Shown here piece after piece: positions 10,339-42,030 of a DNA stretch of 64,000 bases. The notes below the pieces were generated by a model, which worked only from the letters and a program-made list of their open reading frames with translations, was not told where the DNA came from and searched no databases. This stretch comes from Natronorubrum tibetense GA33 (GTDB taxonomy: Archaea; Halobacteriota; Halobacteria; Halobacteriales; Natrialbaceae). Numbering within the stretch: the stretch's first letter is position 1; each line of letters begins with the position of its first letter. Made by a program: the position numbers and the translations under genes. The stretch lies in NCBI RefSeq assembly GCF_000383975.1, contig NZ_KB913017.1:1279101-1343100 (forward strand). Reading direction: 5' to 3'.

Positions 10339-10379
10339 GGATAGACCCACCTGTACATAGACTAGGGAACTATCGCTCG

Positions 10380-10388
10380 GGATAAAGG
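10380..10388 (-). promoter_or_regulatory. TATA box of the 2-oxoacid dehydrogenase operon
   Basis: Minus-strand CCTTTATCC preceded by a GGGAAACT purine-rich element like a BRE. About 26 bp downstream falls near 10357, giving a leader of about 20 nt before the GTG at 10338. Confidence 0.55.
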
Positions 10389-10613
10389 AGTTTCCCAAAA
10401 AAGTTTACTATGAGAGAGATTCTTGCCAGCCACGCACAGGAATATCGGTTGCTCTCCGCCATATTCGAACGGGGTTGTTCAGATATGGATATTATGAATC
10501 ATTCGTCTAATTTTGGCTCGAGTGGAGAGCGAAGAGTGGACAAAGCAGGAGTTTGACGGGAAGCGATGCGTTGACAAGCGACACAGCGTTCACGACGAGG
10601 CGTTGTCTCTCGT

Positions 10614-13468: not shown

Positions 13469-13549
13469 GCGAAAACTCGAGTTCCGTCACTCCGCCGAAA
13501 CGCGCCTCGAAGGAAACGCCTTTGACCCGTCACTCCCCGTGTGAGGGTG

Positions 13550-15913: not shown

Positions 15914-16058
15914 GCGCGCGGCGGGCGACGACCACGCCCACGCCGGTAACTCGAGCGCGGTGGGTGACGCTCGCTGAAACGCGGGTTAGTCGCTCGCCCG
16001 ACCCGGCGGATACGGAAGGCCGATAGCTCTTTACAGTTCTGTTGACCAGTTGTGCTAT

Positions 16059-17588
16059 ATGCAACCGGACCGCTGGGTAGCGGAACGGGCGTCGATCGCT
16101 GATTGGTCGGTCGCTACGGTTCGGGAGACGCAGGCGACCGGGTGGGGAATCGACCGATCCGATGCGGTCGTTGCCGTTCTCGGAAACACGGGGCTGATAG
16201 CGACGCTCGTAATCGGAGTGCTCGTACTGCTCGCTGGTGGACTGATAGTCGTGATTCGATCCGGATCGGCGGCGTCGACTAACTCCAGCGCTGAGCCGGC
16301 GAACCAGACCGAGACGGAGGCGACGACAGCGACCGAGACGGCTGATCCGAAAGCCGAGTTCGAAGAACGAATCGGATCCCAGACACTCGATCGACTCGAG
16401 CCGATCGCACCGGAGGCGGTCGAGCGCGTCCGGACCCGTCGACCGGGCGACCGTGAGGAACGGACTGAAACGGTCGATCAGCTCGAACGCGAGTTGCGTC
16501 GAGGCGTCGAGGATGCGATTGTGAACGGCGACCTCGACCCGAGCCTGACCTCGCGATACGGAGAATCCTACGAAATCGTCAATCTCCCGAGCCGGTACCG
16601 CGAGGTTACACTGCCGCCGTCGAACGAGACGATACACATCACGGATCTCGAGAGCGTCGCAGGAGATGCCCTCGAGCACGAAGCGGGGGTTCGGACCGTC
16701 GAGAAAACCGTCTCGCCACTGTACGATCACTGTCGAGAGATCGAATCGTACGTCGAGCAACGGGAAGAGGCGTTTGCAACGCAGTATACGGCCCTCGAAC
16801 GGACGCTCGAGGATATCCGCGAGCTGACCGACAGGCTCGAGGGGTCGCTGGGCGAACGGATCTCCGAATTCGTCCTAGAGGGACGACACGGCGAAATCGA
16901 CGGCGTCGTCGAAATCGAACGGCAGCTCGAAGCAGCGACCCGATCACTGCACCGCTGTGCGTTCGACGAGGCAACACGGACGCTTCGCGACGCACGCCGA
17001 GAGAGCGACGAACTACTGCTCACCGTGGACTTTCTTGGCGGACTCGTCGGAACAATCGAGCACGGGAGCGCCCAAATCGAGATACCCGATGGCGTTTCGG
17101 TGGCGTTCATCACCGACCTCACGTCGGTCGTCGAACGCGCGTACGACGTCACTGTCGAACTCGAGGGTCGAACGATCATCGTTGACGACCATTCTGAGTC
17201 GGTGACGGGCAGTGACCGAACGGCTGATTCGACGGTGACATCGGTGTCGTCGGACGATAGCGCATCGCAGACTGGTCAGCAACGAGAGCGAATCGCGCCG
17301 GAATCGGTTGCCGACGAGCTCCTGTTCATCCTCCGGGAACTCGACAGCGTCGGCGATAGCGAGACTGTCGAATGCCAGACCGAACAGCTGCCGGAGACCG
17401 TCGCACGACCCGAGGTGCTCTCGGAGTTGGCGACGTTCTGTCGGCGACAGACGGATATCGTTGCGACGGTCGAGTTACAGGACGGCGCGCCGCCGGGATT
17501 TCTCGAGCTCGAGTTCGTCGACCAGTTCGGGGCAAGTAGCGGACTCAAAGCGCTTCGAGAGCGATTTACAGATCGGTACGGCGGCTGA
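16059..17588 (+). CDS. Membrane-anchored coiled-coil protein, first gene of the tubulin-like locus
   Basis: A 509-residue protein that I cannot assign to a family. The ATG at 16059 is preferred over a TTG at 16050. One strong membrane span lies at about 37-62, then a Ser/Thr/Glu linker. The body (about 95-320) is largely helical with heptad-like charged segments (CREIESYVEQREEAF, TLEDIRELTDRLEG). A smaller mixed alpha/beta part follows (about 320-380), then a spacer and a C-terminal domain (about 410-505). It is 116 bp upstream of the zinc-finger tubulin-like gene on the same strand. The layout resembles the other membrane-anchored helical proteins of the locus (at 19597 and 24399), so it probably tethers a cytoplasmic assembly to the membrane. 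Confidence 0.8.
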   Translation: MQPDRWVAERASIADWSVATVRETQATGWGIDRSDAVVAVLGNTGLIATLVIGVLVLLAGGLIVVIRSGSAASTNSSAEPANQTETEATTATETADPKAEFEERIGSQTLDRLEPIAPEAVERVRTRRPGDREERTETVDQLERELRRGVEDAIVNGDLDPSLTSRYGESYEIVNLPSRYREVTLPPSNETIHITDLESVAGDALEHEAGVRTVEKTVSPLYDHCREIESYVEQREEAFATQYTALERTLEDIRELTDRLEGSLGERISEFVLEGRHGEIDGVVEIERQLEAATRSLHRCAFDEATRTLRDARRESDELLLTVDFLGGLVGTIEHGSAQIEIPDGVSVAFITDLTSVVERAYDVTVELEGRTIIVDDHSESVTGSDRTADSTVTSVSSDDSASQTGQQRERIAPESVADELLFILRELDSVGDSETVECQTEQLPETVARPEVLSELATFCRRQTDIVATVELQDGAPPGFLELEFVDQFGASSGLKALRERFTDRYGG

Positions 17589-17704
17589 AAAGTAGGAAAA
17601 TCTACTGCCCCGAGAGCGGAGGATAATAACCGTACTGGCCGTTCTCCGGTATCCACCACACGTAATACTTTAGATAGTTCCGCCGTACGGGTAAGATATC
17701 CGGA

Positions 17705-19297
17705 ATGACCAACATCTGTAAAATCTGTATGCAACGGGCAACTGAATGGCAAGGTGACTCGCTCACCGACCACGTTCGAGCCGCACACGGTGACGAACCG
17801 GCCTCGGTGGAACAAGTGTATCCGGAGTTAGCGGGCGCGCTCGAGGAAGCGGCTCCCGACGGAGAGTCACCGGTGACGGACGGCTCAGCGATCGACGGTC
17901 CAGACGACCGGCCAAGCGACGAGTTGATGGACGACTCCTACGGGAAAAAATGGTTCCTCATCGGTGTTGGCGGCGCAGGAAACAACATTCTCGACGCGGT
18001 GTTGCTTCGACGCGAGACGCTCGAGGAGAACAACGAACGACGGGCGCGGATCTGGAAGGGGGGCCTCGCCGGCTACGGGCTGTTGAACACGAACGTTAGC
18101 GAACTCGAACAGACCTACTACGCCCAAGAGGAGAAAGAATACAGCCGTAACGACCTCCTCCCGAACAGCATCATCGGGTTCGGAAAACACGACTACGCCG
18201 GCGCTGGCTACCGCTGGGACATCGGCAAAGAACTCATCGAGGCGGATTTTGCAGACGACGCCGATCCCTTCCGGGAGCGATGGGATCTCCGAAAGGATCG
18301 GATTCAGGACTCCCAGGCCGTCATGTTCGTCCACAGCGTCACGAAAGGGACCGGCTGTGGGTCGACACCGGTGCTGGCCGAGAAGATCCGCAACCAAGTT
18401 CTCGAGAACGATTTCGTCGTTCCGAAACCGTTGTTCAGTAGTATCGTTATCCCATCAAAAGGGACCGAATACTCGGAGTTCGGCGGGCGAGCAAAAGTCA
18501 ACGGGATCGTTGGTCTCGCGCGTGCCTCTCGAACGGTCGACGCGATTATTCCGTTCGACAACAACCGTCTCGAGAACGTGCAGGCGGATATCCGTCCGCG
18601 AATCGACCGCCTCGACGAGTATAATCCGCCACAGTACCAGGAGATCAACAAACCGCTCGTCGCGTTTCTCGAGGCCTTTACCATGTCGTCGGTCCCGCAG
18701 TTCCTCGATCGGGACGCGACGATGTCCATCATGGGCGACGTGTTCGACCCTGCGGACAGTTTCCGTCCCGTCCAAGACAAGTACCGGCACGATCCGGATA
18801 ACGAGTTCACGCCGGCAGTGATTCTCGCCCCCGTCTTGGGGCGGTCGCGCGCGAACTCGTTCGACCGCTCGAAACTCGAGATTCTCGTCCGGAACGCACT
18901 GTTCCAGAACAAACTCGCCGAGTTCGATCCGACGACCGCGTGGGGCGGAACCTTCCTCGTCTACGGTCCCGAAGAGAAGATGGCCGAAGTCTCGGAGTTC
19001 GTCGCCGACGGAACGCTCTCGAATATTATCGCGGGCGAGCAGTTCTTGGATGCCGGCGGAACGAGCGGAATCGAATCGATCGACATCCATCTCAAACAAC
19101 TCGTCACCCCGTACCTCGACGACGTTTACCTCTGGGGAACGCTCTGGAATCCAGAGATGCCGTCACTCGAGGAGATGTACAACCACGCCCAGACGCTCAA
19201 GCAAGAGGGGAACAGCCAACAGGCCGAAAACGTTCGAGACGCGTGGGAGAACGTCGAAACGCTGTTCTCCTGTCTGGGACGAGAGAATATGGCGTGA
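17705..19297 (+). CDS. Tubulin/FtsZ-superfamily protein with N-terminal C2H2 zinc finger
   Basis: A 530-residue protein. The N-terminus holds a zinc-finger pattern C5-x2-C8-x14-H23-x4-H28, then an acidic linker to about residue 77. The GTPase domain starts with FLIGVGGAGNNILD (T1 loop, GVGGAGN at 87-93). The tubulin signature appears as HSVTKGTGCGSTPVLA (T4, 214-220), in which FtsZ's first Gly is Lys. The nucleotide-contact segment is IIPFDNNRLENV (DNNRL at 285-289) and a T7-like acidic loop (MGDVFDPAD) follows. It is longer than FtsZ or CetZ. Best fit is the FtsZ-like family sometimes called Tubulin_2/FtsZl-1, described from diverse bacteria and archaea. It probably forms GTP-dependent polymers in the cytoplasm, with the finger as a partner- or nucleic-acid-binding module. 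Confidence 0.85.
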   Translation: MTNICKICMQRATEWQGDSLTDHVRAAHGDEPASVEQVYPELAGALEEAAPDGESPVTDGSAIDGPDDRPSDELMDDSYGKKWFLIGVGGAGNNILDAVLLRRETLEENNERRARIWKGGLAGYGLLNTNVSELEQTYYAQEEKEYSRNDLLPNSIIGFGKHDYAGAGYRWDIGKELIEADFADDADPFRERWDLRKDRIQDSQAVMFVHSVTKGTGCGSTPVLAEKIRNQVLENDFVVPKPLFSSIVIPSKGTEYSEFGGRAKVNGIVGLARASRTVDAIIPFDNNRLENVQADIRPRIDRLDEYNPPQYQEINKPLVAFLEAFTMSSVPQFLDRDATMSIMGDVFDPADSFRPVQDKYRHDPDNEFTPAVILAPVLGRSRANSFDRSKLEILVRNALFQNKLAEFDPTTAWGGTFLVYGPEEKMAEVSEFVADGTLSNIIAGEQFLDAGGTSGIESIDIHLKQLVTPYLDDVYLWGTLWNPEMPSLEEMYNHAQTLKQEGNSQQAENVRDAWENVETLFSCLGRENMA

Positions 19298-19596
19298 CGT
19301 GGTTTGCTGTAACGACGTACCGGTGAGGCCGTAGGACCGAATCACGGCCCCACCGAAAACGACTGACAGTAGACAGTTCGAGTCGATCGAGACGTACTCG
19401 ACGGTGCGGCGACAGCAACCGACCGGTCTCGTCGGCGTCCTCGATCGGCCTCGAACACGGCCAACGCCGAGAGGGGAAACGATCGGACGGGACCGAATTT
19501 CGATCATCCAGCCGAGCTAGCCTCGGAATAATCCGTAAACGAGACATATCAGGGCAGAAGGTTAATCACGGATTGCACTCATGCGTTCGCTGTGCA
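19298..19596. other. Spacer between two genes of the tubulin-like locus
   Basis: I see no supported gene in these 299 bases. Open frames here on the minus strand lack start context and motifs. A moderately AT-rich stretch at 19530-19570 may carry the promoter of the next gene, but no clear TATA element stands out. Confidence 0.5.
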
Positions 19597-21573
19597 ATGG
19601 CAGCGGATGGTAATACGCTCCGGTGGAAGCTCGGGTGGTCACCGTGGCTCGTGATCGGCAGTATCGTAATCGTCAGTACAATCGTCGGCGTGGCACTGGA
19701 AGCCACTGGTTGGTTCTTCATCCTCGGACTCGCGGCGGGATTCGGGACATGGTATTGGGGTGTTGTAGAGATCAACAACAGCTATCAGCCGTATATCGAG
19801 AGCTTTCTCAGTCGATCCGAACAGAACGCGAAACGCGGAATCAATGTCGAAGACGGTGAGCTGTACAACCTGACGTACACATCTGGACAGTCCCCTCTGC
19901 TGGTCGAACCCGATGATACGTACTTCAACACTACGATCGTCGTGACCGAGACATCGATCAACCTCAATAAAGGGGCGACGTACAACATGAAATCCCGCTC
20001 AGGAAAGGGTGGCGGGACGAACGAAGAGATTTATTATGATCAAGTGACCGGAGTTCAGTCCCATCAGGGCGGGAACGTCACCGAACTCGAGATTCAGATG
20101 TCCGGCGGCAACTCGACTAAAATCCGATCGAACAAGACGGATACCGTCGATTCGGTCGTCTCCGACGTCAGACAGCGTGTCCGCAAACTCAAGCGGCCCG
20201 GAGCCGGCCGTCAACGGCCGGATACTACCGGCTCGATGGCTCACGCTGCCGGCAGTGAACAACAGGAACCCCCACGAAGATCGTCGGCAAACGATTCGAC
20301 GGACCGCTCTGCGCCCGATGACACAGGAACCGAGTCCTCGAGCCACGATTCGTCACCCCACCCCGTCACAGCAGTCGCGGACAGTGTCGGCAGGGACGCG
20401 AACCCACGTGACCCGCTCGCCGAGGAGTTATGTCGCATGCTCGCCGATCCGTCAGCAAACGAAGCGCAACTCGAGACGACGCTCGAGACCGTAGTCGACC
20501 GACTCGAACGGACGAAAGCGGTTACGGACACCGTCGAACGGATCGACGACCCGACAGCGACGACACAGGTCGAATCAGCAAAACGAACGCTCGTCGAGCA
20601 GGACGACACGCTTTCGAACACCGTCGAACGACTGCTCGATCGACTCCTCGAGGGTGAGGAGGCGTCCACCGTTACCGAACTCGAGGAAACGCTATCGGAG
20701 CGTGAAGCCGAACTGGAACGGCACAAAGCTGTCGAGAACCGCCTCCGAGATGCAGCCAGTTCGATCTGCCGAGATGCCAGCCAGCGCGGTGTCGTTTCCT
20801 TCCAATCGGAGGATGTCATCGATCGATTGGATCGGCTCGCAGCCGCACTCAAACGCGAGGATATCGTACTCGAGACGCCAGATTCGACGGGAGGATTTTC
20901 GTCGGTCGTCGACGATGTCGAACGGACGGCCCGACCGCAGACGGCTCAATCCAGACAGCTCCTTGAGACGATCGGTAACCCCGAACAAACCGAAGCGCAG
21001 AGACGGTCGGCTCTGCAGTCGGCGGTCGAGACGCTCGACGAGTTCGCCGATTTACAGGCCGCTGTCGCGGATATCGGCGAGCGCGACGTTCGTCGGCGGC
21101 TCGACTCGCTCGACGATGAACTGCAGTCAGAAGACGGAGCGGTCTATCGCCACCTCGCCGATCGAGTTCGGGAGTTGGAGTCGATGCTCAACCGCGGTGG
21201 CGTCGATGACGTGCAGTTGTACGCGATCTATCAGGAGAGTACGTTCTACGATCGGACGTTTCTGCCGCGGTTGTCGCGGTCCCAAACCGAGTCGGAGTCG
21301 GTCGATACCGATCAGCTCCGCAGCACTGTCGACGCGCGCATCGCGTCCATCGAGAACGAATACGTTTCCGTCAGAGCCGATCACAACCATACGATCCCGA
21401 CGCACTTCCTGTCGCTCGCGGAGGAACTCAGCGCGGAAGCGGACTCGCTCGAGAGACGACATCCCCAACGCGCGGCCGGTGTCCTGTCAGCTACAGATGA
21501 CCTCCTCGGCCACGTAGAACAGCTGTACGAGCGAAACGAGTACAGCGTCATGCTTCGCCGGCTCCGTGGGTGA
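19597..21573 (+). CDS. Two-span membrane protein with PH-like domain and long helical region
   Basis: A 658-residue protein. The ATG at 19597 is chosen over an upstream in-frame TTG at 19573. Two hydrophobic spans (about 14-38 and 39-58) put both termini in the cytoplasm. A beta-rich segment of about 100 residues follows (ELYNLTYTSG to TVDSVVSDVRQRVRKLK), resembling a bacterial PH-like domain with a closing amphipathic helix. A disordered Ser/Asp linker (about 205-275) leads to about 370 residues of mostly helix with heptad character (LEETLSEREAELERHKAVENRLRD). It is followed 194 bp later by the eight-gene operon. It probably links membrane and cytoplasmic filaments. No enzyme motif is seen. 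Confidence 0.8.
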   Translation: MAADGNTLRWKLGWSPWLVIGSIVIVSTIVGVALEATGWFFILGLAAGFGTWYWGVVEINNSYQPYIESFLSRSEQNAKRGINVEDGELYNLTYTSGQSPLLVEPDDTYFNTTIVVTETSINLNKGATYNMKSRSGKGGGTNEEIYYDQVTGVQSHQGGNVTELEIQMSGGNSTKIRSNKTDTVDSVVSDVRQRVRKLKRPGAGRQRPDTTGSMAHAAGSEQQEPPRRSSANDSTDRSAPDDTGTESSSHDSSPHPVTAVADSVGRDANPRDPLAEELCRMLADPSANEAQLETTLETVVDRLERTKAVTDTVERIDDPTATTQVESAKRTLVEQDDTLSNTVERLLDRLLEGEEASTVTELEETLSEREAELERHKAVENRLRDAASSICRDASQRGVVSFQSEDVIDRLDRLAAALKREDIVLETPDSTGGFSSVVDDVERTARPQTAQSRQLLETIGNPEQTEAQRRSALQSAVETLDEFADLQAAVADIGERDVRRRLDSLDDELQSEDGAVYRHLADRVRELESMLNRGGVDDVQLYAIYQESTFYDRTFLPRLSRSQTESESVDTDQLRSTVDARIASIENEYVSVRADHNHTIPTHFLSLAEELSAEADSLERRHPQRAAGVLSATDDLLGHVEQLYERNEYSVMLRRLRG

Positions 21574-21692
21574 TCCCCGCTCGAGGCGTGCATCGATATC
21601 AGTCGGTCGACCGTCACGCGACACGGACGTGTATTCTTTGTTAGTACGCATTCATATTTCAGCATATACTCCTCAAATTACGCCTTAATGGC

Positions 21693-21735
21693 GCGGAAGG
21701 GGCGATAAACGCGGAAGGGCCAATATCTTTAATAG
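21693..21735 (+). promoter_or_regulatory. Promoter with direct repeat for the eight-gene tubulin-like operon
   Basis: The 9-bp direct repeat GCGGAAGGG occurs at 21693-21701 and 21711-21719, 18 bp apart start to start. It is followed directly by a TATA element, TCTTTAATAG, at 21726-21735. Transcription would begin near 21757, about 10 nt before the GTG at 21768. Repeats placed just upstream of TATA are a typical position for archaeal activators or repressors. Another AT-rich TATA-like stretch lies at 21655-21672. Confidence 0.5.
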
Positions 21736-21767
21736 GTGATATTCGAGAAAGTCTATTATCAATACAT

Positions 21768-23111
21768 GTGCCAGTCAATTACTATTTTCAGCGGAAAGCA
21801 GAACCGCTGGCTGATACGCAAATGACGTACCTGTTCGTAGGGGCGGGACAGGCGGGTGGTGCGATCGTCGATTCCATCTTCGAATACACCGACGATTCGA
21901 TGCTCGGACTGTTCGAATCGACCGACATCTCGACTCTCGGTCGACCACTGGTGTTCAATTCGACGATGCGTGATCTCCAGAACCTGTCGAACGTTCCCGC
22001 CGAAGATCAGTACGGTGTGGCAGAACAGCACGGACTGGTTCAGGGAACCGAACCGGGATTCGAAGAGATGGTGACTGGCGGCTTCGGGCGGAATCCAGTT
22101 GCCGCCGACGAGGTGATGGACGAACACGCGTCGGAACTCCAAACGATTCTTGGCGAGAAGTTCGGTACCGCCTTCGAGTCGGACCTCGACGAAGAGAGCG
22201 ACGAGGACGCTGGAGAGATCGATCCGAGTGGGAGCGACACGATTCAGTTTGCGTTTCTCTTTCTCGGACTCGGCGGCGGAACGGGCTGTGGAATCGGTCC
22301 GCACCTCGCCCGTCAACTCAAGGAGTTCACCGATGGCCGGACCCAAATCGTCGCGGTCGCAGTGCTCCCAAACACCCGAGGAGGAGCGACGGGGGACGAC
22401 GACACTAGTGCAGGCCGGCAGGCGTGGAACACACGGTACGGTCTGGACCGCCTCGAAGACGAAGTCGACGGCGTCATCCTCGTCGATAATCAGCGCCTCT
22501 CCTACCTCGATTCGGCAGGTGGCGAGTTCGGAAAGTACAACGAGTACGTCGCCACGGCGATTCACGATATGGTTGCAGGACCGATGCTGAATAGCGTCGA
22601 CGCGAGCGAGGTCGATGGGATCGACACACCGGACATCGACGTTCGAGACCTCCTCACGTCGCTGTCGTTCGGTGTCGGCACCGACGAGGCGAAGCCGGGA
22701 TACGGTGCGATCGGCCGGTCGGTAACCATGACCAGATCATTGGCGGGCTATCTGTTACCGGTCGTCGGTAAGCGCGCGATCGACAGCGCGGCGATTTCCA
22801 GACTCTCAGTGTCGAAACAATCACTCGCGAACGCCGATATCGGCGACGCACAGAAGGCCATCGCGTTGATCAGAGCACCTAGCTCGAGGCTGGGTGCTGG
22901 TCCACACAGCGTCGAGACGGGAACGGTGAAAGAGTTCCTCGAGGGGAGTTCTCAGTTGGGAGAAGTCAACCTCGGCGTCGCACTCAGCGATCGGAACCTC
23001 GTCTCGGTGACGAGCGTCCTGACCTACCGTCGCGAGGATATCGATCGCCTCGAGGAGATCGAATCGGCGGCCGACGCCTACGAGGAAGAGACGGAGGAAC
23101 TGCTCGCATGA
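21768..23111 (+). CDS. Tubulin/FtsZ-superfamily protein (second of three)
   Basis: A 447-residue protein, the most canonical of the three. T1 is YLFVGAGQAGGAIVDSIFE (GAGQAGG at 25-31, close to CetZ in form). The tubulin signature GGGTGCG is at 169-175 inside FLFLGLGGGTGCGIGP. The guanine-side segment is ILVDNQRLSYLDS (240-244) followed by KYNEYVATAIHDMV, and the T7-like catalytic loop is around DIDVRDL (289-295), so GTP hydrolysis on assembly is plausible. An acidic loop (about 138-155) is inserted before the T4 strand. Start: the GTG at 21768 fits the TATA distance; an ATG at 21822 would remove 18 residues. Its stop overlaps the next gene (ATGA). Confidence 0.87.
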   Translation: MPVNYYFQRKAEPLADTQMTYLFVGAGQAGGAIVDSIFEYTDDSMLGLFESTDISTLGRPLVFNSTMRDLQNLSNVPAEDQYGVAEQHGLVQGTEPGFEEMVTGGFGRNPVAADEVMDEHASELQTILGEKFGTAFESDLDEESDEDAGEIDPSGSDTIQFAFLFLGLGGGTGCGIGPHLARQLKEFTDGRTQIVAVAVLPNTRGGATGDDDTSAGRQAWNTRYGLDRLEDEVDGVILVDNQRLSYLDSAGGEFGKYNEYVATAIHDMVAGPMLNSVDASEVDGIDTPDIDVRDLLTSLSFGVGTDEAKPGYGAIGRSVTMTRSLAGYLLPVVGKRAIDSAAISRLSVSKQSLANADIGDAQKAIALIRAPSSRLGAGPHSVETGTVKEFLEGSSQLGEVNLGVALSDRNLVSVTSVLTYRREDIDRLEEIESAADAYEEETEELLA

Positions 23112-23380
23112 GACGCGGGCGGGTGCGGATCGTGACTGGCGTGCTCGCGTTCGTCCTGACAGTCAGTGTGGCTGCCGGAACGAGCGTCGCAGCTGGCACG
23201 TCGTCGGTCGGGCAGGCCATTGACGCAACCGAACTGGCGATGACGACACAGACGCTCGCTGGCCAGCCACTCCTCATCGCGGCCGGCGGACTCCTTCTCG
23301 GCGCAGGTCTCGGCGTCGCGGTTGCAAGTGGTCTCACCTACTGGTACAAGAACAGAGAGATCCAGGGGCGACTACGATGA
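23108..23380 (+). CDS. Small exported single-pass membrane protein
   Basis: A 90-residue protein. An N-terminal signal-like segment (about 1-28, RRGRVRIV then a hydrophobic core) is followed by a short extracytoplasmic loop and a Gly/Ala-rich membrane span (about 53-77). A basic cytoplasmic tail (WYKNREIQGRLR) ends it. It overlaps the genes on both sides by 4 bp, so it should be made in step with the second tubulin-like protein. The GxxxG-like packing in the span suggests helix-helix contact with another membrane protein of the set. Confidence 0.75.
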   Translation: MRRGRVRIVTGVLAFVLTVSVAAGTSVAAGTSSVGQAIDATELAMTTQTLAGQPLLIAAGGLLLGAGLGVAVASGLTYWYKNREIQGRLR

Positions 23381-24402
23381 TCGGGCGCAGACAGCTCGCA
23401 GTGGGCCTAGTGATACTGGCGATGGGACTCGTCGTCGTCACCGGGACTGGCGTCGCAGACACGGCAGAACACTGTGACGACGAGGAGGCGGCGATCGTGA
23501 GTGAGTTCGACGAGACCCTTGCGAATAATGAAACGCTCTCACTACACGAAGAGACGACGTTCGAGGTCGCCCACTGCGGTGAGACGAGAACGCAAGACGA
23601 CTGGTTGAACCACTCGAACGCGGAGGGGTTCAACGTGTCAGATCGGAATAACGGCGTCTACACCGTCGAAATTACCGGGAAAACGCCGACGTTCGACTTT
23701 GCAGACTACGCTGAAGTTGACGAATTCGAAGACGAACCCGACGGACTCGTCGTCGAGGTCCCTACGCCGGCGACGTTCGGCGAGGGCGGCGAACCTGCCG
23801 ATCCCGACGGAGAGTACGAAGCACTCGTCGCAGAGTACCACGATGCAACTGTCAATTTCGAGAACGCAACCGACGAGTTGGACGCGGTTCGGGAGACCAT
23901 CGAGTCGAGCGACGATCCCGATTTGGAAGAGGCACTCGAGACGGTGAACGCGGTCGAAGAGCGCCAGGAGAGGATGACCGGCGCGGAAACCGCGGCTATC
24001 GAACACGTGATCCAAGAGATGGATGATGGGAATATGACGGGCGCTTTCGGAGCCATCGCGACGATCGAAGCACAGCAACACGAACGCGCGGATTCGCTCG
24101 AGAAGTCGACCGAGACCTATCGGACGACGGTCGAGAACGAACGGGACGAGCCACAAATGACGGTTCGACTCACGCTGGGTGGCTCGCTACTGGGCGGGCT
24201 CCTGGCCGGGGTTCTTGCGGGCGCGGCGATACCGCTCGTCGCCGCGAAGCGCGTCGAGTCGAAAATGCGACTGAGTCGGAACGTGACGTACAATCGCAAC
24301 ACTGCACTGTTGCCGATTCTCGTGGGCGTCGTCCTCGTGATCGGCGGGATCGCGGTGCTTGCCCTCGTCGGCTGGGCGGATCTAGTGGGGGTGATTCGAT
24401 GA
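23377..24402 (+). CDS. Exported protein with helical ectodomain and two membrane spans
   Basis: A 341-residue protein. The signal peptide is at about 1-27. The ectodomain (about 28-255) begins with a beta-rich part holding two Cys (C33 and about C67, possible disulfide) and continues as helix with several Asn-X-Ser/Thr sequons (NET, NHS, NVS, NAT, NMT), as expected for a glycosylated haloarchaeal surface part. Two spans follow, near 262-287 and 310-333, joined by a short basic loop (AKRVESKMRLSRN). Both ends therefore face outside or near the membrane. It overlaps its neighbours by 4 bp on each side. Unknown family; probably the outer part of the complex. Confidence 0.75.
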   Translation: MIGRRQLAVGLVILAMGLVVVTGTGVADTAEHCDDEEAAIVSEFDETLANNETLSLHEETTFEVAHCGETRTQDDWLNHSNAEGFNVSDRNNGVYTVEITGKTPTFDFADYAEVDEFEDEPDGLVVEVPTPATFGEGGEPADPDGEYEALVAEYHDATVNFENATDELDAVRETIESSDDPDLEEALETVNAVEERQERMTGAETAAIEHVIQEMDDGNMTGAFGAIATIEAQQHERADSLEKSTETYRTTVENERDEPQMTVRLTLGGSLLGGLLAGVLAGAAIPLVAAKRVESKMRLSRNVTYNRNTALLPILVGVVLVIGGIAVLALVGWADLVGVIR

Positions 24403-26486
24403 ACGCGAACGCGAAGACCGCGTTCGGCATCGGCGCCCTCGTCGCCCTCGCAGCAGCGGCCAGTGCCGGCGTCTTCGTCTGGTCCGGCTCGCAGGCGGCA
24501 ACCTGGTTCGTGATCGTGGGCATCCCCCTGATCACCGTGGCAGGAATCGCACTGTATGTCCGCGGCGTCATCGCACGGAGCGGGACGAGCGAACAGCAGT
24601 TCGTTCGAACCCGTGCCCAATCGACTGCCGAGGAGTTTCAAACGTGTATTCGTCGGATAAACGAACTGCAGAACGCTTATTCCGACTGGAATCCCGCAAT
24701 CGACGCACGGCTGGACTCGGTCGCCGGTGACTTCCGAGCGGAGGGCGTCGATTTCGATCTCGAGTCGGGCGCGTACGATCTCGGAAAGGGAGTCAACAAC
24801 GCCGATCTACCGGCGTTCGAACAGCTTTCTACGGAGGTCGACAATCTCGAGACGACCGTCGATGCGTCGTTGCGAGAGTTCGGAGAGGAGGAGCTCTCAC
24901 GAATCGAAACAACCCTCGAGCGACTCGATGAGGCCACCCTCGTCCAGTTCGATCGACGGCTGCAGCGTCCCGTAGACGACGCGCCGATTCCGGAGTTTCG
25001 GGACGCAATCGACAGTGCTCGGGAGGACGCAGTCGAGACGATCGAGACGGCCATCGAAACCGTCCGCGAGATGGGGCGTGGCGAGACTCGGCCGGACGAC
25101 AGTGAGGCGGTCGAGCGGGACCTCGAGTCGGCTAGCGAGGCGGTCGACCGATACGAGTTCGAGTCGGCCGCCGACTCAATTCTTGCCGCACAGGACCGGC
25201 TCCGAGACGAGTTCGCCGGTTCGTTCGAGATGGAACGAGACGCCGTGTTGGCACTCACTGCCGCAGTCACGGAGGCGGACGTTGCCGAACACGTCGACGC
25301 AGACTATCTCGACGACGTCTCTCGGATCGAATCGACCGTCGACGGAATGGATTCGGCACTCGATCTCACGGAACTGAGCCGTCCACGGTCGGAGCTCCGT
25401 CGAACCTGCGTCGACATGATCGCGACGATGGAGCGCGAACTCGCAGCAGACGTACGAACGCTTCGAAACGCGGACCTCCCGTCGGGCTACTACACGGAGC
25501 CCGCAGTCGTCGACGAACAGTTCGTCGACGAGATCAACGAGATCGACGACTTCGGCGAGTTTACCGAACGGTGGGCGACGATTGCAGCGGAGTTACGTGA
25601 CGCGCTGGACACTGCGAGTACGAAAGCAGCCGTCATCGATGCCTACGACGATGTCGCCGAAACGATCGAGACGGAACTCGAGCAACACGGGGAGGTGACG
25701 GGTGACGCGTTACCGGTTCGACATGCCGATCAGTTCCTCGGGCTCTACTTCCGTCGAAACGACTCAGTGGAGTTCGATCCGGATACTCCTCTTCTCAGGC
25801 GGGGAACCGTGGAGACGCACGAACTGACGATCGATATCACGTACGATCGAGGCGGAGAAACCCGGACGGCGACGATCGAACTAACCGACAGCGGGTACAC
25901 GGAGACGGTGACGATCGAGACGCGAATCGCCGGAACGGCCACCATCACCGACGTTCCGGCCGGAACCTACACGCTCTCAGCCGATCCCGGCGACGAGATG
26001 TTCGGCCGCGTCGAGCGCGAGATCCGTCTCGAGGAGGAGACGACGACGAGCATCGAGTTTACCGAGCAAAGCCTTCGCGAACAGGTTTGTGCGGACGTCG
26101 AGACGGATATCGAAGCGATCCTTCCGGAGGTACGTCCCCGGCTCGAGACGCTATTCGAGGACGAAGGCTACGTCTCGACGGCGACCGATCTCCCCGTACG
26201 GTCGTCGTACGCACCGTGCGTGCTGGCGGTGTGGGCAGATCAAACCAGCTACGACGTGTGTCGAGACGGCGAGGCGGTCGTCGTCTACGATCGGGACCAA
26301 CTCGAGCGGGAACTGACCAACGTCCTCCGGTACAACGTCGAGTCCGGCGATCGACTCGCGTTCGACGAACTCGAGCAGAACTTCCTTTCGGCACCGGTTC
26401 CCGGTCCGGTTATTCGAGACGTGATCGAGGGAATCGACAGCGAACACCGCGTGACGGCGACCGAAACGGCGATCGAGGTACACTGA
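24399..26486 (+). CDS. Two-span membrane protein with coiled coil and PEGA-like beta domain
   Basis: A 695-residue protein. Two N-terminal spans (about 8-31 and 34-55) leave most of it in the cytoplasm. Residues about 75-420 are helical with strong heptads and many Asp/Glu. Residues about 465-550 form a small beta-sandwich of the PEGA or carboxypeptidase-regulatory kind (TITDVPAGTYTLSADPGDEMF is its hallmark turn). A C-terminal alpha/beta part with four Cys follows (VCADVE, YAPCVLAVWADQTSYDVC). It overlaps the gene before by 4 bp and is 3 bp before the third tubulin-like gene. Same plan as the protein at 19597, so likely a membrane scaffold for filaments. Confidence 0.78.
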   Translation: MNANAKTAFGIGALVALAAAASAGVFVWSGSQAATWFVIVGIPLITVAGIALYVRGVIARSGTSEQQFVRTRAQSTAEEFQTCIRRINELQNAYSDWNPAIDARLDSVAGDFRAEGVDFDLESGAYDLGKGVNNADLPAFEQLSTEVDNLETTVDASLREFGEEELSRIETTLERLDEATLVQFDRRLQRPVDDAPIPEFRDAIDSAREDAVETIETAIETVREMGRGETRPDDSEAVERDLESASEAVDRYEFESAADSILAAQDRLRDEFAGSFEMERDAVLALTAAVTEADVAEHVDADYLDDVSRIESTVDGMDSALDLTELSRPRSELRRTCVDMIATMERELAADVRTLRNADLPSGYYTEPAVVDEQFVDEINEIDDFGEFTERWATIAAELRDALDTASTKAAVIDAYDDVAETIETELEQHGEVTGDALPVRHADQFLGLYFRRNDSVEFDPDTPLLRRGTVETHELTIDITYDRGGETRTATIELTDSGYTETVTIETRIAGTATITDVPAGTYTLSADPGDEMFGRVEREIRLEEETTTSIEFTEQSLREQVCADVETDIEAILPEVRPRLETLFEDEGYVSTATDLPVRSSYAPCVLAVWADQTSYDVCRDGEAVVVYDRDQLERELTNVLRYNVESGDRLAFDELEQNFLSAPVPGPVIRDVIEGIDSEHRVTATETAIEVH

Positions 26487-26489
26487 CAA

Positions 26490-27716
26490 ATGGCACAATC
26501 GGATACGTTTACGAGATGGAGCGTCATCGCCTCGGGAGAGGGTGGCGGGCGCATCGCGTCACAGTTTTTCGACCGAAGCGAAAACCCAGGAATCGACGAT
26601 CGGATTCTGGTGATGAACACGAATCGGGCCGATCTCCGAAACACGATCGATCGGATGAAGGGGGAGTTGAGGGCCGGTCAAAACAGCGAAGAGGTCATGG
26701 AGTCACACGCCCTGGAGTTCGGGTCACAGCAGGGCGCGGGAAACTTCTTCCCGAACGGCGAAGCCTGTGCACAGGAGGACCTCGGCCGGATCGTCAGCCG
26801 GATCAAGGACTTCAGTTCGACTGACGCGTTCATGCACGCCGTTACCCTCGGCGGCGGAACTGGGAACGGCTCGATCCCGTACGTCGTCGATCAATTCAAA
26901 AACGGACTCCACGATCTGGACGACGACAACGTGTTCGAAAACTGGATGGACAGCGTCATCCACACTGCCTTCGGCGTCTGGCCGCACTACTACGAGCAGC
27001 CACAGCGGCACTTCAACGCGGTTTGTGGCCTCTCTCGACTGCTTCGGACCGAAGACGGTGAGCAGAACGCCGACATGGTGTTGCTCGCATCGAACTCACA
27101 TCTCGACGAGCAAGAGAGTGGGACCGGTCGCGAGTACGATTCGATCAACGAAGCGATCATTACGGCGGTCGATCTGATGATCGGTGCCGGACGCGAGACG
27201 CGAAGCGTCATCGACGTCAAAGACTACGTGACGCTTCCGTCTCAGATGGACGCCTACCACTTTACGCCGGCAGTCGCGACCGATCTCAACGGCGACGTGT
27301 ACGAACTCGAGTACATGTTCGACAAGGCGACGGAGAACGCGTATATTCCGATGGACGTCGGGACGACGGCGGCCGCTTACGCCATCGTGCGTGCGCCCGA
27401 ACGAATGATCGAGAACGGGGAGATCACCGAACCCGACGTGTACGGCGCGTTCCGCGAGTGGACGGGAAAACACGAGATCAACGTGGCCGGCCAGGCCACC
27501 CTCACGCCGAAGCAGGGCCGTGGCTCCGACGTCGACGTCCTGTTGTTGCTCGGCGGGTTCGACCTCAACCCGCTGCTCGAGCACTCGTGGGATGACTTCG
27601 AGATGCTCGGTGACAGCCTCACCGGACACGGTGGCGGAAGTGGTGACCTCTCTCGAGCGGAACTCGATCGGATCGTCGACAACCTCGATTCGTACGTGGC
27701 AAAGAACGCGGAGTGA
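26490..27716 (+). CDS. Tubulin/FtsZ-superfamily protein (third of three)
   Basis: A 408-residue protein. T1 is degenerate but recognisable (SVIASGEGGGRIASQFF, GEGGGR at 16-21), and strand 2 reads ILVMNTNRADL, as in FtsZ/CetZ. The tubulin signature is VTLGGGTGNGSIPYV (GGGTGNG at 121-127). The nucleotide segment is LLASNSHLDEQ, followed by REYDSINEAIITAVDLMI, very like the YDxIN helix of FtsZ/CetZ. A T7-like loop (VIDVKDYV) follows. It is the shortest of the three and lacks the acidic insert. The C-terminus ends with a Gly-rich linker and a short helix, a possible partner-binding tail. It is separated by 3 and 9 bp from its neighbours. Confidence 0.85.
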   Translation: MAQSDTFTRWSVIASGEGGGRIASQFFDRSENPGIDDRILVMNTNRADLRNTIDRMKGELRAGQNSEEVMESHALEFGSQQGAGNFFPNGEACAQEDLGRIVSRIKDFSSTDAFMHAVTLGGGTGNGSIPYVVDQFKNGLHDLDDDNVFENWMDSVIHTAFGVWPHYYEQPQRHFNAVCGLSRLLRTEDGEQNADMVLLASNSHLDEQESGTGREYDSINEAIITAVDLMIGAGRETRSVIDVKDYVTLPSQMDAYHFTPAVATDLNGDVYELEYMFDKATENAYIPMDVGTTAAAYAIVRAPERMIENGEITEPDVYGAFREWTGKHEINVAGQATLTPKQGRGSDVDVLLLLGGFDLNPLLEHSWDDFEMLGDSLTGHGGGSGDLSRAELDRIVDNLDSYVAKNAE

Positions 27717-27725
27717 TCGTCGAGG

Positions 27726-30614
27726 ATGAACGCACACGAAGTCACCGCAGACGGCCACCGACAACCGACGAGCCGTCTCCTGCTCGCACTCACCCTCGTT
27801 GTCGCGCTCGCACTCGCCGGCACGCTCTTCGCCGGCGCCGTCGCAGGCGAAGACGATGGATCACTCGAGCGCGATGGACACAATCTCTCGGTCGATCTAT
27901 CGGGCATCGACGGAGACCCGGACGAGTTGATCGTCGAGGTGAACGAGCCAGCAGGGATCACCTACACGGAGAACGCGAGCGGTGAGACGGGCGACATCGA
28001 CGTCGACCTGACGGATCCGGACGAACCGATCGGAAACGAGTCGCTGACGGCGGCGAACGTCACGGTAACGGTGACGCTTGCCGACGACGAGCCAGAGACC
28101 GTCCCCCGCAACGAGATCGTCGGGCTCCACTACGCGACGTTCGACGAGACGGTCCCAGTCTGGATCGCGGACGGCGAGGTCCGAATTGCACTGGCCGACG
28201 ACGGAACCGGCGGACTCGTCGGCAACGAGACCGTCCAGATCGCCGCCGACGAATCCGGAGACACCATCGACGGGACGATTCGGAACGGTGGGACACAGCT
28301 CGCGATCGACCATGATGAGTTCGTAGACCACGTCTCCGCAACCGACGAGTTCACCATCGATATCTACGAAAACGGAGGGACGGTAACGGAGGGCCACCGA
28401 TCACTCGGGCCGGAACTGCGATCCGTCGACGATCAACTCGTCGTCTGGCACCCGCTCCTCGAGACCGATCGGGAGTACGATATCGACGCAGAAGACGCCG
28501 ACGGACGGTACGTAGCGACCGACGAACCATCCGAGCCGGGAACGCTCGCGCTCTCGACGCTCTCTCTCGGCGACGACCTTTCCGTCGAAGTAAGCGAGAC
28601 GGACGGGGACGAACTCCAGTTCGAGATCGACGACGCAACCGCGATCGATCCGATCGAATTGAACGCGACGATCGTCGACGACTCGACGCTCGAGTTCGAA
28701 CAGGGCGTCGCTGGACTGGACGTAAGCAACGCGGTGCTCGCGTCGAACGACACGCGGCAGTTCGACGTCGACGGCGCTATCGACGAGAACGGCCGGCTCG
28801 ACCTCGGCAACGAAACCGTGACGGCAGACGACGACTTGCTGCTCGCAACCAGTGCCGGCATCGCGTCGGTCGAGCTCGACAAGAGTGAGAGCGAAACGGA
28901 AAATGAGGGAACTTTCAGCAGCGTTCTCGACTACATCTGGTACGGAATCGCGATCGGCCTTCCGCTCGTGTTCGGCGTCGTGGTCGGAATCATCGGAACG
29001 CGAATCGGTGGCTACCCGACCCGAAAGAGACTCGGGGTCGCTACCGTTCTCGGATTCGGGGTCGTGCTGACGATCGTCATTTCGGTCCTCTGGCTCCAAA
29101 CGACCGGGTTCTGGCCGCTAGAATCGACCGAACCGAGCACGTACGGCCTCATCGCTGGGGGCGTGCTCGGAATCGCTCTCGTCCCGACAACCTACGCCGT
29201 GCTCGGTCCGCGAATCGCGGGCAGTAGTCCCGCGTTTTCGGCAACCGTGACCGTCACCGACGGCAATCAACCCCTCCAGGGACAGACGACGGTATACTAT
29301 CGGAGCGCGGCCAACGAAGATATCAACGGAGCCGAGACGGTTACCGATGGAACAGGCGCGATAACGATACCGGAGCGCGGAACCTGGGAACTCGCCGCCA
29401 AACACGGTTCACAGACATCCAATCCCGTCACCATCACCGGTCGACGCTCGAGTGCGACACTCACGATCCCGTTCTCGTCGACGATCACCGTCACGGATCA
29501 GCGCGGGGATCCGATTCCCGGCGCGTCGATCACAACTGACGACGAGACTGTCGAGACGGATACCGCCGGAACGGCGACTCTGTCACCCTCGGACGACGCC
29601 TCAAGCATCGATGTCTCGGTCGAGCACGAAAAGTACCGACCTGAGACGATGACAGTCGAGTTCGGAAAGCGTTCGGACAAGCGGCTCACGCTCACGGCCC
29701 AAACCGGACGCGTCAAGCTTATCTCCCAGATCGACGGCGTTCGAACCGGGGCGACGAGGCTCCAGCTCACGCCAGCACGTACCGAACAGTACCTGCAGCA
29801 ACGATCGGCGGGAACGACCGTGACGACGGGAGCCGATGGCGTCGCCACGGTCGATGGGGTCATGATCGGCAACTATCGCGTCGAATCCTCGATTTCGACC
29901 GGACCGACGAGTCCGTTCGACGGAGCCGACAGCAGTCTGACAGTTGCGACGGACGGGACGGCGAGTGCAACGCTCGAGACGCGGTTCACCTGGTCGCTCT
30001 CGCGGAGGCAGCGGGAACGGATCGACGAAATCCGGCAGGATGTTCGATCGCTTTCCAGCTACTCAGGACGGGACACGAGCATCCCGAAATACTACGGCTC
30101 GGTCATCGAATCGATGCTCGAGACGGTCGAGTCGATGCCCAACGCGGGCCACCACTTCGTGGCGTTCGACGACGAGCCGGATGTGGTTGCAAACGCAATT
30201 CTCGACTCCGCGTCGCGGACGACCGAGGCGATCAACGAGGCGATGACGACCAAACGGAACGCCGACCTCTTCGCGGCCTGTGCGGATATGCCCGATCCCA
30301 GAATCGACTGGAGCGGGGAACATTCGCTGTCGGAACTCCTCGAGCGCCTCGAGTCCGATCCGGGAACGCAGCGCAAAGCGGTCAAAGAGCGCTACAAGGA
30401 GGTAGGAACGCGGATCGAAGCGCAACGCCGGGAGGTCTCGGAGATCGCACCCGCACAAGAGATGCACCAGTGCGCCTGGGACCTAATTGGTGAGACCGAC
30501 CGCGGGGGGGACGCGATCGTGATCGGCTACACGTCCTTGCTCCTCCTCGACGCGGTCGAACAGCTGTTCGAACACGATGCACTCACCGAACGACTCTCAC
30601 GGACGGTGTTCTAA
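27726..30614 (+). CDS. Large envelope-spanning protein: ectodomain, three spans, cytoplasmic beta domains and helical tail
   Basis: A 962-residue protein. A signal peptide (about 1-42) is followed by a beta-rich, sequon-containing ectodomain (about 43-395). Three spans (around 400-422, 428-452, 463-488) return the chain to the cytoplasm. Three consecutive small beta-sandwiches of the carboxypeptidase-regulatory/PEGA type follow (about 495-740; hallmarks VTDGTGAITIPERGTWELAAKHG, DPIPGASITTDDETVETDTAGTATL and ADGVATVDGVMIGNYRV). A helical domain forms the end (about 745-962). Such beta domains are usually extracellular; here topology places them inside. The protein could carry force or signal from the tubulin-like polymers to the surface. 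Confidence 0.78.
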   Translation: MNAHEVTADGHRQPTSRLLLALTLVVALALAGTLFAGAVAGEDDGSLERDGHNLSVDLSGIDGDPDELIVEVNEPAGITYTENASGETGDIDVDLTDPDEPIGNESLTAANVTVTVTLADDEPETVPRNEIVGLHYATFDETVPVWIADGEVRIALADDGTGGLVGNETVQIAADESGDTIDGTIRNGGTQLAIDHDEFVDHVSATDEFTIDIYENGGTVTEGHRSLGPELRSVDDQLVVWHPLLETDREYDIDAEDADGRYVATDEPSEPGTLALSTLSLGDDLSVEVSETDGDELQFEIDDATAIDPIELNATIVDDSTLEFEQGVAGLDVSNAVLASNDTRQFDVDGAIDENGRLDLGNETVTADDDLLLATSAGIASVELDKSESETENEGTFSSVLDYIWYGIAIGLPLVFGVVVGIIGTRIGGYPTRKRLGVATVLGFGVVLTIVISVLWLQTTGFWPLESTEPSTYGLIAGGVLGIALVPTTYAVLGPRIAGSSPAFSATVTVTDGNQPLQGQTTVYYRSAANEDINGAETVTDGTGAITIPERGTWELAAKHGSQTSNPVTITGRRSSATLTIPFSSTITVTDQRGDPIPGASITTDDETVETDTAGTATLSPSDDASSIDVSVEHEKYRPETMTVEFGKRSDKRLTLTAQTGRVKLISQIDGVRTGATRLQLTPARTEQYLQQRSAGTTVTTGADGVATVDGVMIGNYRVESSISTGPTSPFDGADSSLTVATDGTASATLETRFTWSLSRRQRERIDEIRQDVRSLSSYSGRDTSIPKYYGSVIESMLETVESMPNAGHHFVAFDDEPDVVANAILDSASRTTEAINEAMTTKRNADLFAACADMPDPRIDWSGEHSLSELLERLESDPGTQRKAVKERYKEVGTRIEAQRREVSEIAPAQEMHQCAWDLIGETDRGGDAIVIGYTSLLLLDAVEQLFEHDALTERLSRTVF

Positions 30615-30618
30615 GTAG

Positions 30619-31632
30619 ATGACCGACACACACACGACTCGGCTGACGCTGATCGTCATCGCCGTCGTCGTTGCGACGCTGGTGACGATTCCGCTGTTCG
30701 GCGCCAGCGTCACCGCTGCCGATGGCGACGACCCCGAAACGGCGAACGAATACTTCGAGACGTTCCGTGCGATGGAGGGTGTCGACGCCTACGAGGAGTA
30801 CGACGAACTCGAAACGATTCGTACGTACGCCGTCTCACAGACCCAAGAGACCGGGACGCTCGACGACGACGAACGCGACGAACTCGCGGCCGTCCTCGCA
30901 ACGATGACGGCGTTCGAGCGTGCGTACACCGAGGCCGAAGACGGGTCTTACGAAGAGAGTCTCGGAGCGGCCGAGGAGACCGGCGAAGCGATATCGGAGC
31001 TCGAAACGCACGAACAGACACAAGCGACGCTTGCCGATCTCGCCTTGACTCGTTTCTACGAGACACTCGGCGACGGACTCCACGACGACGTGGAAGCTGC
31101 CGAGCGAACGCCGGAGCGGATCGATCTGCTCTCGATGACCGCGACAGCGTACGAACGAGCAAACATGCCCGAGGAATCGGCGGAGTTCAACCTGCAGGCC
31201 GAACAACTGACGGCCGAGTACGACGGTGCACTCGAGGAGATCGAGACCGCCGAATCCGACAGCGAGTCGTTCCTCGAGACGTGTGCCGACTGTACCGAGT
31301 TCCAGGCGGCCCTCGTCGGAAGCACGAATCCGCTCGAGACGTTCGAAAACTATCGGAGCGCCCTGGACGTAAGCGCCACGCTCGGCGATGCAGAAGACGA
31401 GGCGGCGACACACGGGCTCGAGGAGCGCGAGGAAGCGCTTGCTGCGGCCGGCAGCGACGTCGGCGACGCACGGCTCTCGCTCGCGCTCGCCTCGAGTGCG
31501 GTGCTGATCGGATACGGGACCGTCGTGGGACTGTTCGGAGCGATCGTCGTCAGCCGGATCTTCAGCTGGCGACGGACGTACGACAGGGCACAGATCGGTT
31601 CCGTCGTGACGGCAGGTGAGAACGATGTCTAA
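30619..31632 (+). CDS. Exported helical-repeat protein with C-terminal membrane anchor
   Basis: A 337-residue protein. The signal peptide (about 1-35) ends near ASVTAADG. The ectodomain (about 36-275) is almost all helix, in antiparallel pairs like TPR or spectrin-type repeats (DDDERDELAAVLATMTAFER, TATAYERANMPEESAEFN). Two Cys (CADC) lie near 220. A single span (about 285-310) ends in a short basic tail. It starts 4 bp after the previous gene and overlaps the next by 8 bp. Similar membrane-proximal helices occur in the following protein, so the two may be related or may bind each other. Confidence 0.75.
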   Translation: MTDTHTTRLTLIVIAVVVATLVTIPLFGASVTAADGDDPETANEYFETFRAMEGVDAYEEYDELETIRTYAVSQTQETGTLDDDERDELAAVLATMTAFERAYTEAEDGSYEESLGAAEETGEAISELETHEQTQATLADLALTRFYETLGDGLHDDVEAAERTPERIDLLSMTATAYERANMPEESAEFNLQAEQLTAEYDGALEEIETAESDSESFLETCADCTEFQAALVGSTNPLETFENYRSALDVSATLGDAEDEAATHGLEEREEALAAAGSDVGDARLSLALASSAVLIGYGTVVGLFGAIVVSRIFSWRRTYDRAQIGSVVTAGENDV

Positions 31633-33964: not shown

Positions 33965-34068
33965 CCTCGGGACACCGTCGCGGGCTCCGTTTTCGAGTGG
34001 AAAGAGAGTACAAACGGACTGTTGCTCGAATGCTGTTGAGCATCGTTCGCAGAAATGCAAGGAGGGAG

Positions 34069-34088
34069 CCAACGACTTCAGTCGTTGG
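34069..34088. repeat. Hairpin at the convergent junction, possible IS200/IS605-type end relic
   Basis: A perfect 8-bp stem with a 4-nt loop, CCAACGAC-TTCA-GTCGTTGG, lies in the 186-bp gap between the two convergent operons. The stretch just before it (34010-34068) also holds short self-complementary pieces. Hairpins of the form CCAACGACTTCAGTCGTTGG are, from memory, common at the right ends of haloarchaeal IS200/IS605 (IS1341-type) elements. No transposase gene remains. It may now serve as a shared transcript end. Confidence 0.35.
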
Positions 34089-34150
34089 GGGAATCCGACT
34101 TGCGACCGACGAACAGCGTCGTCGACACGATTCGGTCCACGAGGCGACGC

Positions 34151-39570: not shown

Positions 39571-39571
39571 C

Positions 39572-40627: not shown

Positions 40628-40667
40628 TTTCGAGTCGTTGAATCGTTTGATATCAGTTCCGCGTTAG

Positions 40668-41786: not shown

Positions 41787-41810
41787 TGCATCGTGATTTA
41801 TATGCTCTCA

Positions 41811-41818
41811 TACTAAAC
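41811..41818 (-). promoter_or_regulatory. TATA box of the minus-strand AAA+ operon
   Basis: Minus-strand GTTTAGTA is centred about 28 bp before the ATG at 41786, which predicts a leaderless transcript. A second AT-rich element, CATATAAAT, lies closer (41796-41804) but is too near the start to direct it. Confidence 0.5.
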
Positions 41819-42030
41819 CTTGCGACCGAATAGATTCATTTCCCACCACTGAGCGGCTATTTCAACCAATTTCCGGAATATCACTTCGTGTAGAACGCCG
41901 GGGGAGCAAGACCGCGATTCGTGCCAACTATCGTCGACAATCGATTCGGTTCGACGCATAGTCAGTCGAGAATGGCAGCTATCCTATCAGTGATCGATAC
42001 GGAGACTGCGGTGATTTCCCCTCCGCGGTT

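Follow-up and report, generated by a model that had tools for sequence, protein, structure and literature searches.

We analyzed a 64,000-nucleotide stretch of the Natronorubrum tibetense GA33 genome (contig NZ_KB913017.1, positions 1,279,101 to 1,343,100; hereafter, the window) and focused on a locus with three genes for tubulin-superfamily proteins, here called TubA, TubB, and TubC. Because TubB and TubC recurred together in distant archaea, and because the tubulin genes alternated with genes for membrane-spanning proteins, the locus looks like an undescribed multi-tubulin machine that would act at the cell envelope. The three genes were as follows.

TubA, 17705..19297, plus strand: 530 amino acids (aa), tubulin GTPase domain; PF00091, 44.0 bits, E 3.9e-11
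TubB, 21822..23111, plus strand: 429 aa; PF00091, 58.6 bits, E 1.3e-15
TubC, 26490..27716, plus strand: 408 aa; PF00091, 34.0 bits, E 4.6e-8

Each protein scored above the curated PF00091 cut-off of 33 bits, and profile comparison placed none of them outside the tubulin superfamily. These results bore out a preliminary description of this DNA, which had reported three tubulin/FtsZ-like proteins at these positions. The lengths given there for TubA and TubC held, but TubB was shortened from 447 to 429 aa; its start was moved from a GTG codon at 21768 to an ATG codon at 21822 (codon 19) because all of the orthologs found began at or near this codon. The motifs given for TubA, TubB, and TubC (GVGGAGN, GAGQAGG, and GEGGGR in T1; KGTGCGS, GGGTGCG, and GGGTGNG in T4) read as quoted and recurred in orthologs.

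None of the more specific family models was matched at its threshold. The FtsZ equivalog model TIGR00065, which has a cut-off of 295.2 bits, gave 29.6 bits with TubA, 33.0 bits with TubB, and 16.6 bits with TubC. The Tubulin_2 model PF13809 (cut-off, 27 bits) gave 13 bits with TubB and no match with TubA or TubC, and neither CetZ_C (PF21011) nor the tubulin C-terminal domain model matched any of the three proteins at E values up to 1. PF21011 from the same library did detect a divergent CetZ-type protein (E 2.6e-34) encoded about 3.5 kb beyond the end of the window (L039:3549-4694, G000 C1). In profile searches of the PDB, the top hits of TubB and TubC were the archaeal entries 3zid and 4b46, which were deposited as Tubulin/FtsZ GTPase and FtsZ and which we take to be CetZ proteins. 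On plasmid PHS2 of Halobacterium salinarum R1 (L143:7071-8693 and 10173-11312), RefSeq calls TubA and TubB "cell division protein FtsZ" and TubC "hypothetical protein"; the two products called FtsZ scored about 30 bits versus the FtsZ cut-off of 295. Two FtsZ proteins (at the NCBIfam equivalog level), several CetZ-type proteins, and one Tubulin_2 protein were encoded elsewhere in the N. tibetense genome. Because the last of these, a 795-aa Tubulin_2/FtsZl1 protein (L040:7334-9721), was found outside the locus, the species holds FtsZ, CetZ-type, and Tubulin_2 proteins as well as three new kinds.

The three proteins were also distant from one another. Profile-profile comparisons gave E values of 1.8e-14 for TubA-TubB, 3.5e-12 for TubB-TubC, and 3.6e-9 for TubA-TubC, with identities of about 20 to 26%. 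In a tree with FtsZ1, FtsZ2, and CetZ-type sequences, TubA, TubB, and TubC each formed one separate clade (support of 100, 99, and 100 in the Shimodaira-Hasegawa-like approximate likelihood ratio test) that grouped with neither FtsZ nor CetZ, and the joins and order between the long branches of this tree were unsure. Because the clades were distinct, the profile identities were low, and the FtsZ, CetZ_C, Tubulin_2, and tubulin C-terminal models all went unmatched, we regard the three proteins as anciently separated branches of the superfamily and not as copies of one gene. The view that the locus did not arise by simple duplication was thus upheld, since three clades, such low identities, and conserved synteny are not what equal recent duplicates would show. 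Within the cluster, the tubulins evolved the slowest (mean identity of 0.60 to 0.66, versus 0.30 to 0.40 for the other genes); they were its most conserved genes and therefore fit a central role.

An alignment with FtsZ and CetZ indicated that the H7 Asn and the T7 DxxD pair were kept in TubA (T7, VFDPAD), TubB (DIDVRD), and TubC (VIDVKD). The T7 acids D348 and D351 of TubA were invariant among the aligned orthologs, those of TubB were present in 52 and 59 of 60 orthologs, and those of TubC were present in 70 of 71 orthologs at both positions. The spacing between the H7 Asn and the T7 Asp was 33 residues in TubA and TubB and 22 residues in TubC. T4 was canonical in TubB (GGGTGCG) and in TubC (GGGTGNG, found in about 70 of 71 orthologs) and only partly so in TubA (TKGTGCG), in which Lys214 was invariant in 29 of 29 distinct sequences. 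The T1 segment of TubC read SGEGGGR in the window and SGEGG[GN]R over the orthologs. A candidate loss of the T7 acids from TubA, for which residues 332-341 had been taken as T7, was rejected because the H7-T7 alignment placed T7 at 346-353; the substituted T4 (TKGTG) was the only clear departure of TubA. The N terminus of TubA carried invariant residues C5, C8, H23, and H28, which resembled a C2H2 finger by motif only, followed by a variable acidic linker, and its C-terminal tail (LF[SD]CLGRxNM) was conserved. Judged by these residues, TubA is the odd member of the three, and the T7 acids give no sign that any of the three is catalytically inactive.

Strong TubB and TubC matches were found in the identical 18 genomes of a haloarchaeal sample comprising 195 genomes of the order, and 16 of those 18 also had TubA. 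A scan of GTDB contigs located TubC in Halorubrum, Natrinema, Halorussus, and others and, beyond the haloarchaea, in Methanoperedens, ANME-2, Hydrothermarchaeota, Altiarchaeota, and a micrarchaeon. Outside the haloarchaea, 11 genomes that had a clear TubB also had TubC, and TubA was not found in any non-haloarchaeal genome searched. In the Altiarchaeota, TubB was located elsewhere in the genome; in the micrarchaeon, it was nearby on the other strand.

The ANME-2 proteins were a separate case. Family f22 genomes (G418, G311, G295, and others) that were without TubC encoded TubB-like proteins of about 310 aa, which covered only model positions from about 104 to 380 and which may be relatives of the degenerate forms in ANME-2. 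The ANME-2 TubB-like proteins were withdrawn as proof of pairing because this related short family occurs in genomes without TubC.

The span of 17705-27716 to which the preliminary description had confined the locus was only part of a larger unit, a 26-kb block (about 15914-42030) of about 16 genes, 11 on the plus strand and five convergent on the minus strand. The other features of the block were as follows.

Whole block, 15914..42030: single unit, either present in full or missing, flanked by a helicase gene (13541-15913) and a HAD hydrolase gene (42031-42681)
g1, 16050..17588, plus strand: protein with a single transmembrane (TM) segment (residues 50-68) and a long helical segment predicted to be cytoplasmic; orthologs adjoin TubA in 16 genomes
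g3, 19573..21573, plus strand: N-terminal TM segment, then helical protein
Small gene, 23108..23380, plus strand: 90-aa hydrophobic (membrane) protein, 4-bp overlap with TubB
g5, 23377..24402, plus strand: signal-peptide-like start, helical segment, two C-terminal TM segments
g6, 24399..26486, plus strand: TM hairpin, long helices, Cna-B/transthyretin-like beta-sandwich, C-terminal alpha/beta domain (AlphaFold predicted local distance difference test [pLDDT] score of 86)
g8, 27726..30614, plus strand: signal peptide, extracellular half, three TM segments, second half with carboxypeptidase-regulatory-like beta-sandwich repeats
g9, 30619..31632, plus strand: signal peptide, helical ectodomain, C-terminal TM segment, short basic tail
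g10, 31616..33964, plus strand: signal peptide, immunoglobulin (Ig)-like/NEW3 ectodomain, C-terminal TM segment, short basic tail
m1, 34151..37159, minus strand: large protein; H. salinarum R1 relative with PQQ-type beta-propeller and CARDB domain
m2, 37116..38846, minus strand: AAA ATPase, CDC48/VCP-like; PF00004, E 4.5e-32; best PDB matches, VCP-like ATPases, E 4e-52
m3, 38839..39570, minus strand: conserved, no curated family; R1 plasmid relative, E 2e-9
m4, 39572..40627, minus strand: conserved, no curated family; R1 plasmid relative, E 8e-31
m5, 40668..41786, minus strand: conserved, no curated family; R1 plasmid relative, E 1e-66

The junctions from TubB through g10 were overlapping or 3 to 9 bp apart. 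The order g1-TubA-g3-TubB-g5-g6-TubC-g8-g9-g10 was kept in 16 of the 195 genomes, which belonged to several families, and many of these also had m1 in convergent orientation. Because orthologs recurred in the same order in these genomes, the arrangement of the three tubulin genes is not a matter of chance. The 10-gene order was also found on megaplasmids or plasmids of Natrinema and H. salinarum R1; in the case of R1, PHS2 kept the whole block, including the convergent operon m1-m5, and its m2 relative was 55% identical to the window protein. The Natrinema plasmid ortholog of the 90-aa membrane protein was 66% identical over 58 aa, and small genes were annotated in the same place in two plasmids. 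In G000, G145, and G179, the block was on the chromosome beside the same helicase gene. In a congener (G189), the helicase and HAD genes were 150 bp apart, which left a clean empty site where the window holds 26 kb, and in G112 they were 17 bp apart. Because of these empty sites, we consider the block to have been gained or lost whole. No long direct repeat was seen at the block ends, and no tRNA gene was located there.

Two genomes (G132 and G138) had TubB and TubC but were without TubA, g1, and g3, and the TubC of G138 was identical to that of Halobellus salinus. Conversely, G006 had a TubA relative with g1, g3, g8-like, and m1-like genes but without TubB or TubC. A stand-alone TubA module of this composition was located at L060:4565-13530. 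In Methanoperedens and Hydrothermarchaeota, the order was g10-g9 on the opposite strand, then TubB, g6, and TubC, usually with a g8-like gene. Because the core reached these lineages and TubA was not found outside the haloarchaea, the locus is best described, on comparative grounds, as two modules. One is an old TubB/TubC core (TubB-g6-TubC plus g8-g10), and the other is a TubA module that joined it in the haloarchaea and has its own membrane partners, g1 and g3.

A hydropathy scan placed TM segments in g1, g3, g5, g6, g8, g9, and g10 and none in the tubulins, and basic residues past the last TM segment suggest that the C termini of g6, g8, g9, and g10 are cytoplasmic. The Cna-B/transthyretin-like domain of g6 (residues 472-558) gave fold matches with a Z score of about 10. 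These matches were for that domain only; the long helices and other domains were barely covered, and all Foldseek hits had E values above 0.001. The portion of g6 common to Hydrothermarchaeota stopped before the beta-sandwich. Relatives of g8 carried carboxypeptidase-regulatory and Ig domains, relatives of g10 had a sub-threshold NEW3/Ig match, and a sub-threshold NPCBM_assoc match was also found in a Hydrothermarchaeota relative. The Natrinema ortholog of g3 matched a bacterial PH domain (bPH_2) and a zinc ribbon.

We tentatively propose, at somewhat less than an even chance, that the products of the locus make up a multi-tubulin system that is tethered to the membrane and coupled via TM anchors to extracellular Ig-like proteins. 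Such a system would probably remodel or organize the envelope. Specifically, TubB and TubC would assemble, possibly together, into a filament that depends on nucleotide, and every subunit would have the residues needed to bind GTP and to hydrolyze it through T7. The g6 and g8 proteins would anchor this filament to the membrane from the cytoplasmic side, and g8, g9, and g10 would connect it through the membrane to Ig-like domains outside the cell. TubA, which has an altered T4, a finger-like N terminus, and an invariant C-terminal tail, may modify or connect the filament, and the AAA ATPase (m2) may take assemblies apart. The likely output would be mechanical work on the envelope, such as shape, surface-layer (S-layer) organization, or vesicle or secretion-like remodeling. 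Basic division is not the expected output because the genome has genes for FtsZ1, FtsZ2, and CetZ-type proteins outside the locus. In a bolder version, which we consider rather doubtful, TubB and TubC would be obligate partners in an ancient archaeal hetero-tubulin filament separate from those of FtsZ, CetZ, and alpha/beta-tubulin. The g6 protein would anchor this filament, which would be coupled through the membrane to extracellular Ig-like proteins, and the haloarchaea would have added a third tubulin that bears a zinc finger.

Several observations weighed against the membrane-tethered system. TubA occurred without TubB/TubC (G006) and TubB/TubC occurred without TubA (Halobellus and G132); therefore, there is no obligate three-way complex. 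The ANME-2 TubB-like proteins were short and partly degenerate (T4, GGITG; T7, SIRVRD), and a similar TubB-like family occurred in genomes without TubC, so the pairing in ANME-2 is uncertain. In addition, the topologies came from the hydropathy scan and positive-inside reasoning and not from a trained predictor, and the structure prediction for TubA was of low confidence (mean pLDDT of 42, predicted template modeling score of 0.31) and was not used for a fold search.

Other arrangements of the tubulins were also considered. In a strict hetero-polymer, TubB and TubC would alternate in one protofilament like alpha/beta-tubulin or BtubA/BtubB, and TubA would cap or nucleate it. The co-occurrence of TubB and TubC in 18 of 18 haloarchaeal genomes and in the 11 non-haloarchaeal genomes fits such a polymer, as does the finding that both flank g6 in Methanoperedens and Hydrothermarchaeota. 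However, one partner in alpha/beta-tubulin is without the catalytic residue, whereas TubB and TubC each keep their own T7 acids, so there is no sequence sign of fixed alternation. The two genes are also unlinked in Altiarchaeota and ANME-2, and we consider strict alternation rather doubtful. The H7 and T7 signatures of all three proteins, their distant mutual similarity, and the separability of TubA from TubB/TubC would suit separate homopolymers or non-polymerizing GTPase switches, each with membrane partners, that the operon groups for one envelope structure. The near-constant pairing of TubB with TubC exceeds the need of independent functions, and we consider this arrangement unlikely.

The preliminary description had also suggested that one protein is an active GTPase and the other two are regulatory relatives. 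The invariant Lys (29 of 29) in the TubA T4 or the SGEGG[GN]R T1 of TubC could impair exchange or hydrolysis, but every one of the three proteins conserves the T7 DxxD and the H7 Asn, and T4 is canonical in TubB and canonical and nearly invariant in TubC. The suggestion was therefore unsupported at the sequence level, and we regard it as quite improbable. A plasmid-segregation or defense system that uses tubulins in a TubZ-like manner would be in keeping with the presence or absence of the block as a unit and with its location on megaplasmids in some species. This explanation is very improbable, given the chromosomal copies beside the same helicase gene in three genomes and the prevalence of envelope proteins among the partners. 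PADLOC returned only general AAA and weak coiled-coil-type matches, no phage record matched, and a defense or phage origin of the block was dropped as a candidate.

Parts of this locus resemble systems in the literature. Santana-Molina et al. (2023; PMC9871819) reported haloarchaeal "Halo.Tub" copies that were quasi-tandem, had coiled-coil neighbors, and were of unclear origin. The text of that paper treats these sequences, which may be TubA, TubB, TubC, or another pair, as copies of one group and names no system; here, there are three orthologous families, a bounded 16-gene block, and a wider-ranging TubB/TubC core. A different tandem pair of tubulin-superfamily genes, separate from the block system, was present in G182 (L061:7861-10809) and possibly corresponds to the quasi-tandem copies. 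A 2023 survey of CetZ noted non-canonical archaeal superfamily members with a patchy distribution (PMC9856176). The FtsZl1 systems of Makarova and Koonin (2010; PMC2875224), for which membrane remodeling was proposed, likewise place archaeal tubulin-superfamily proteins beside membrane proteins. However, PF13809 was not matched by TubA, TubB, or TubC, the Tubulin_2 protein of this genome is encoded elsewhere, and Pfam scans of the block found none of the FtsZl1 operon partners (vWA protein, kinase, and P-loop GTPase).

The TubB T1 (GQAG) was as in the CetZ-type sequences examined here, and 3zid and 4b46, both archaeal, were the best PDB matches for TubB and TubC, but the three proteins had no CetZ_C match, formed separate clades, and had T7 segments ending in DxxD instead of the CetZ-type DxxE. 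They share the GTPase domain and the T7 DxxD with FtsZ but scored 17 to 33 bits against its cut-off of 295, and two true FtsZ genes lie elsewhere. If the hetero-polymer reading holds, the presence of more than one paralogous tubulin would be a feature in common with alpha/beta-tubulin, BtubA/BtubB, and Asgard AtubA/AtubB, from which the present proteins differ by deeper partner divergence, the lack of a tubulin C-terminal domain match, and membrane partners in the operon. A partial literature collection, with supplements outside it, yielded no paper that describes the block as a system and none on the Halobacterium genes of the block.

Apart from eukaryotic microtubules and some bacterial and Asgard relatives, there are few known cases in which several tubulins work in a single machine. 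If the proposal is correct, the conserved two-tubulin core, which is found in Hydrothermarchaeota, Altiarchaeota, a micrarchaeon, Methanoperedens, and haloarchaea, would amount to an independent system of this kind and would test how paralogous tubulins come to cooperate. The system is accessible to experiment because the model archaeon H. salinarum R1 carries the whole block on PHS2.

Three further observations concerned neighboring genes. In Methanoperedens (L115:15040-18192), an S-layer protein gene (PF07752) was located downstream of the TubB-g6-TubC core, only a few genes away. The CetZ-type gene of L039 was preceded on the same strand by a putative tRNA intron endonuclease gene, as judged by resemblance by eye. 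Just outside the block, the minus strand of the window (44781-52658) encoded a 2625-aa surface protein with right-handed beta-helix repeats, a carboxypeptidase-regulatory domain, and a PGF-CTERM motif, and a relative of this protein was also present in the congener without the block.

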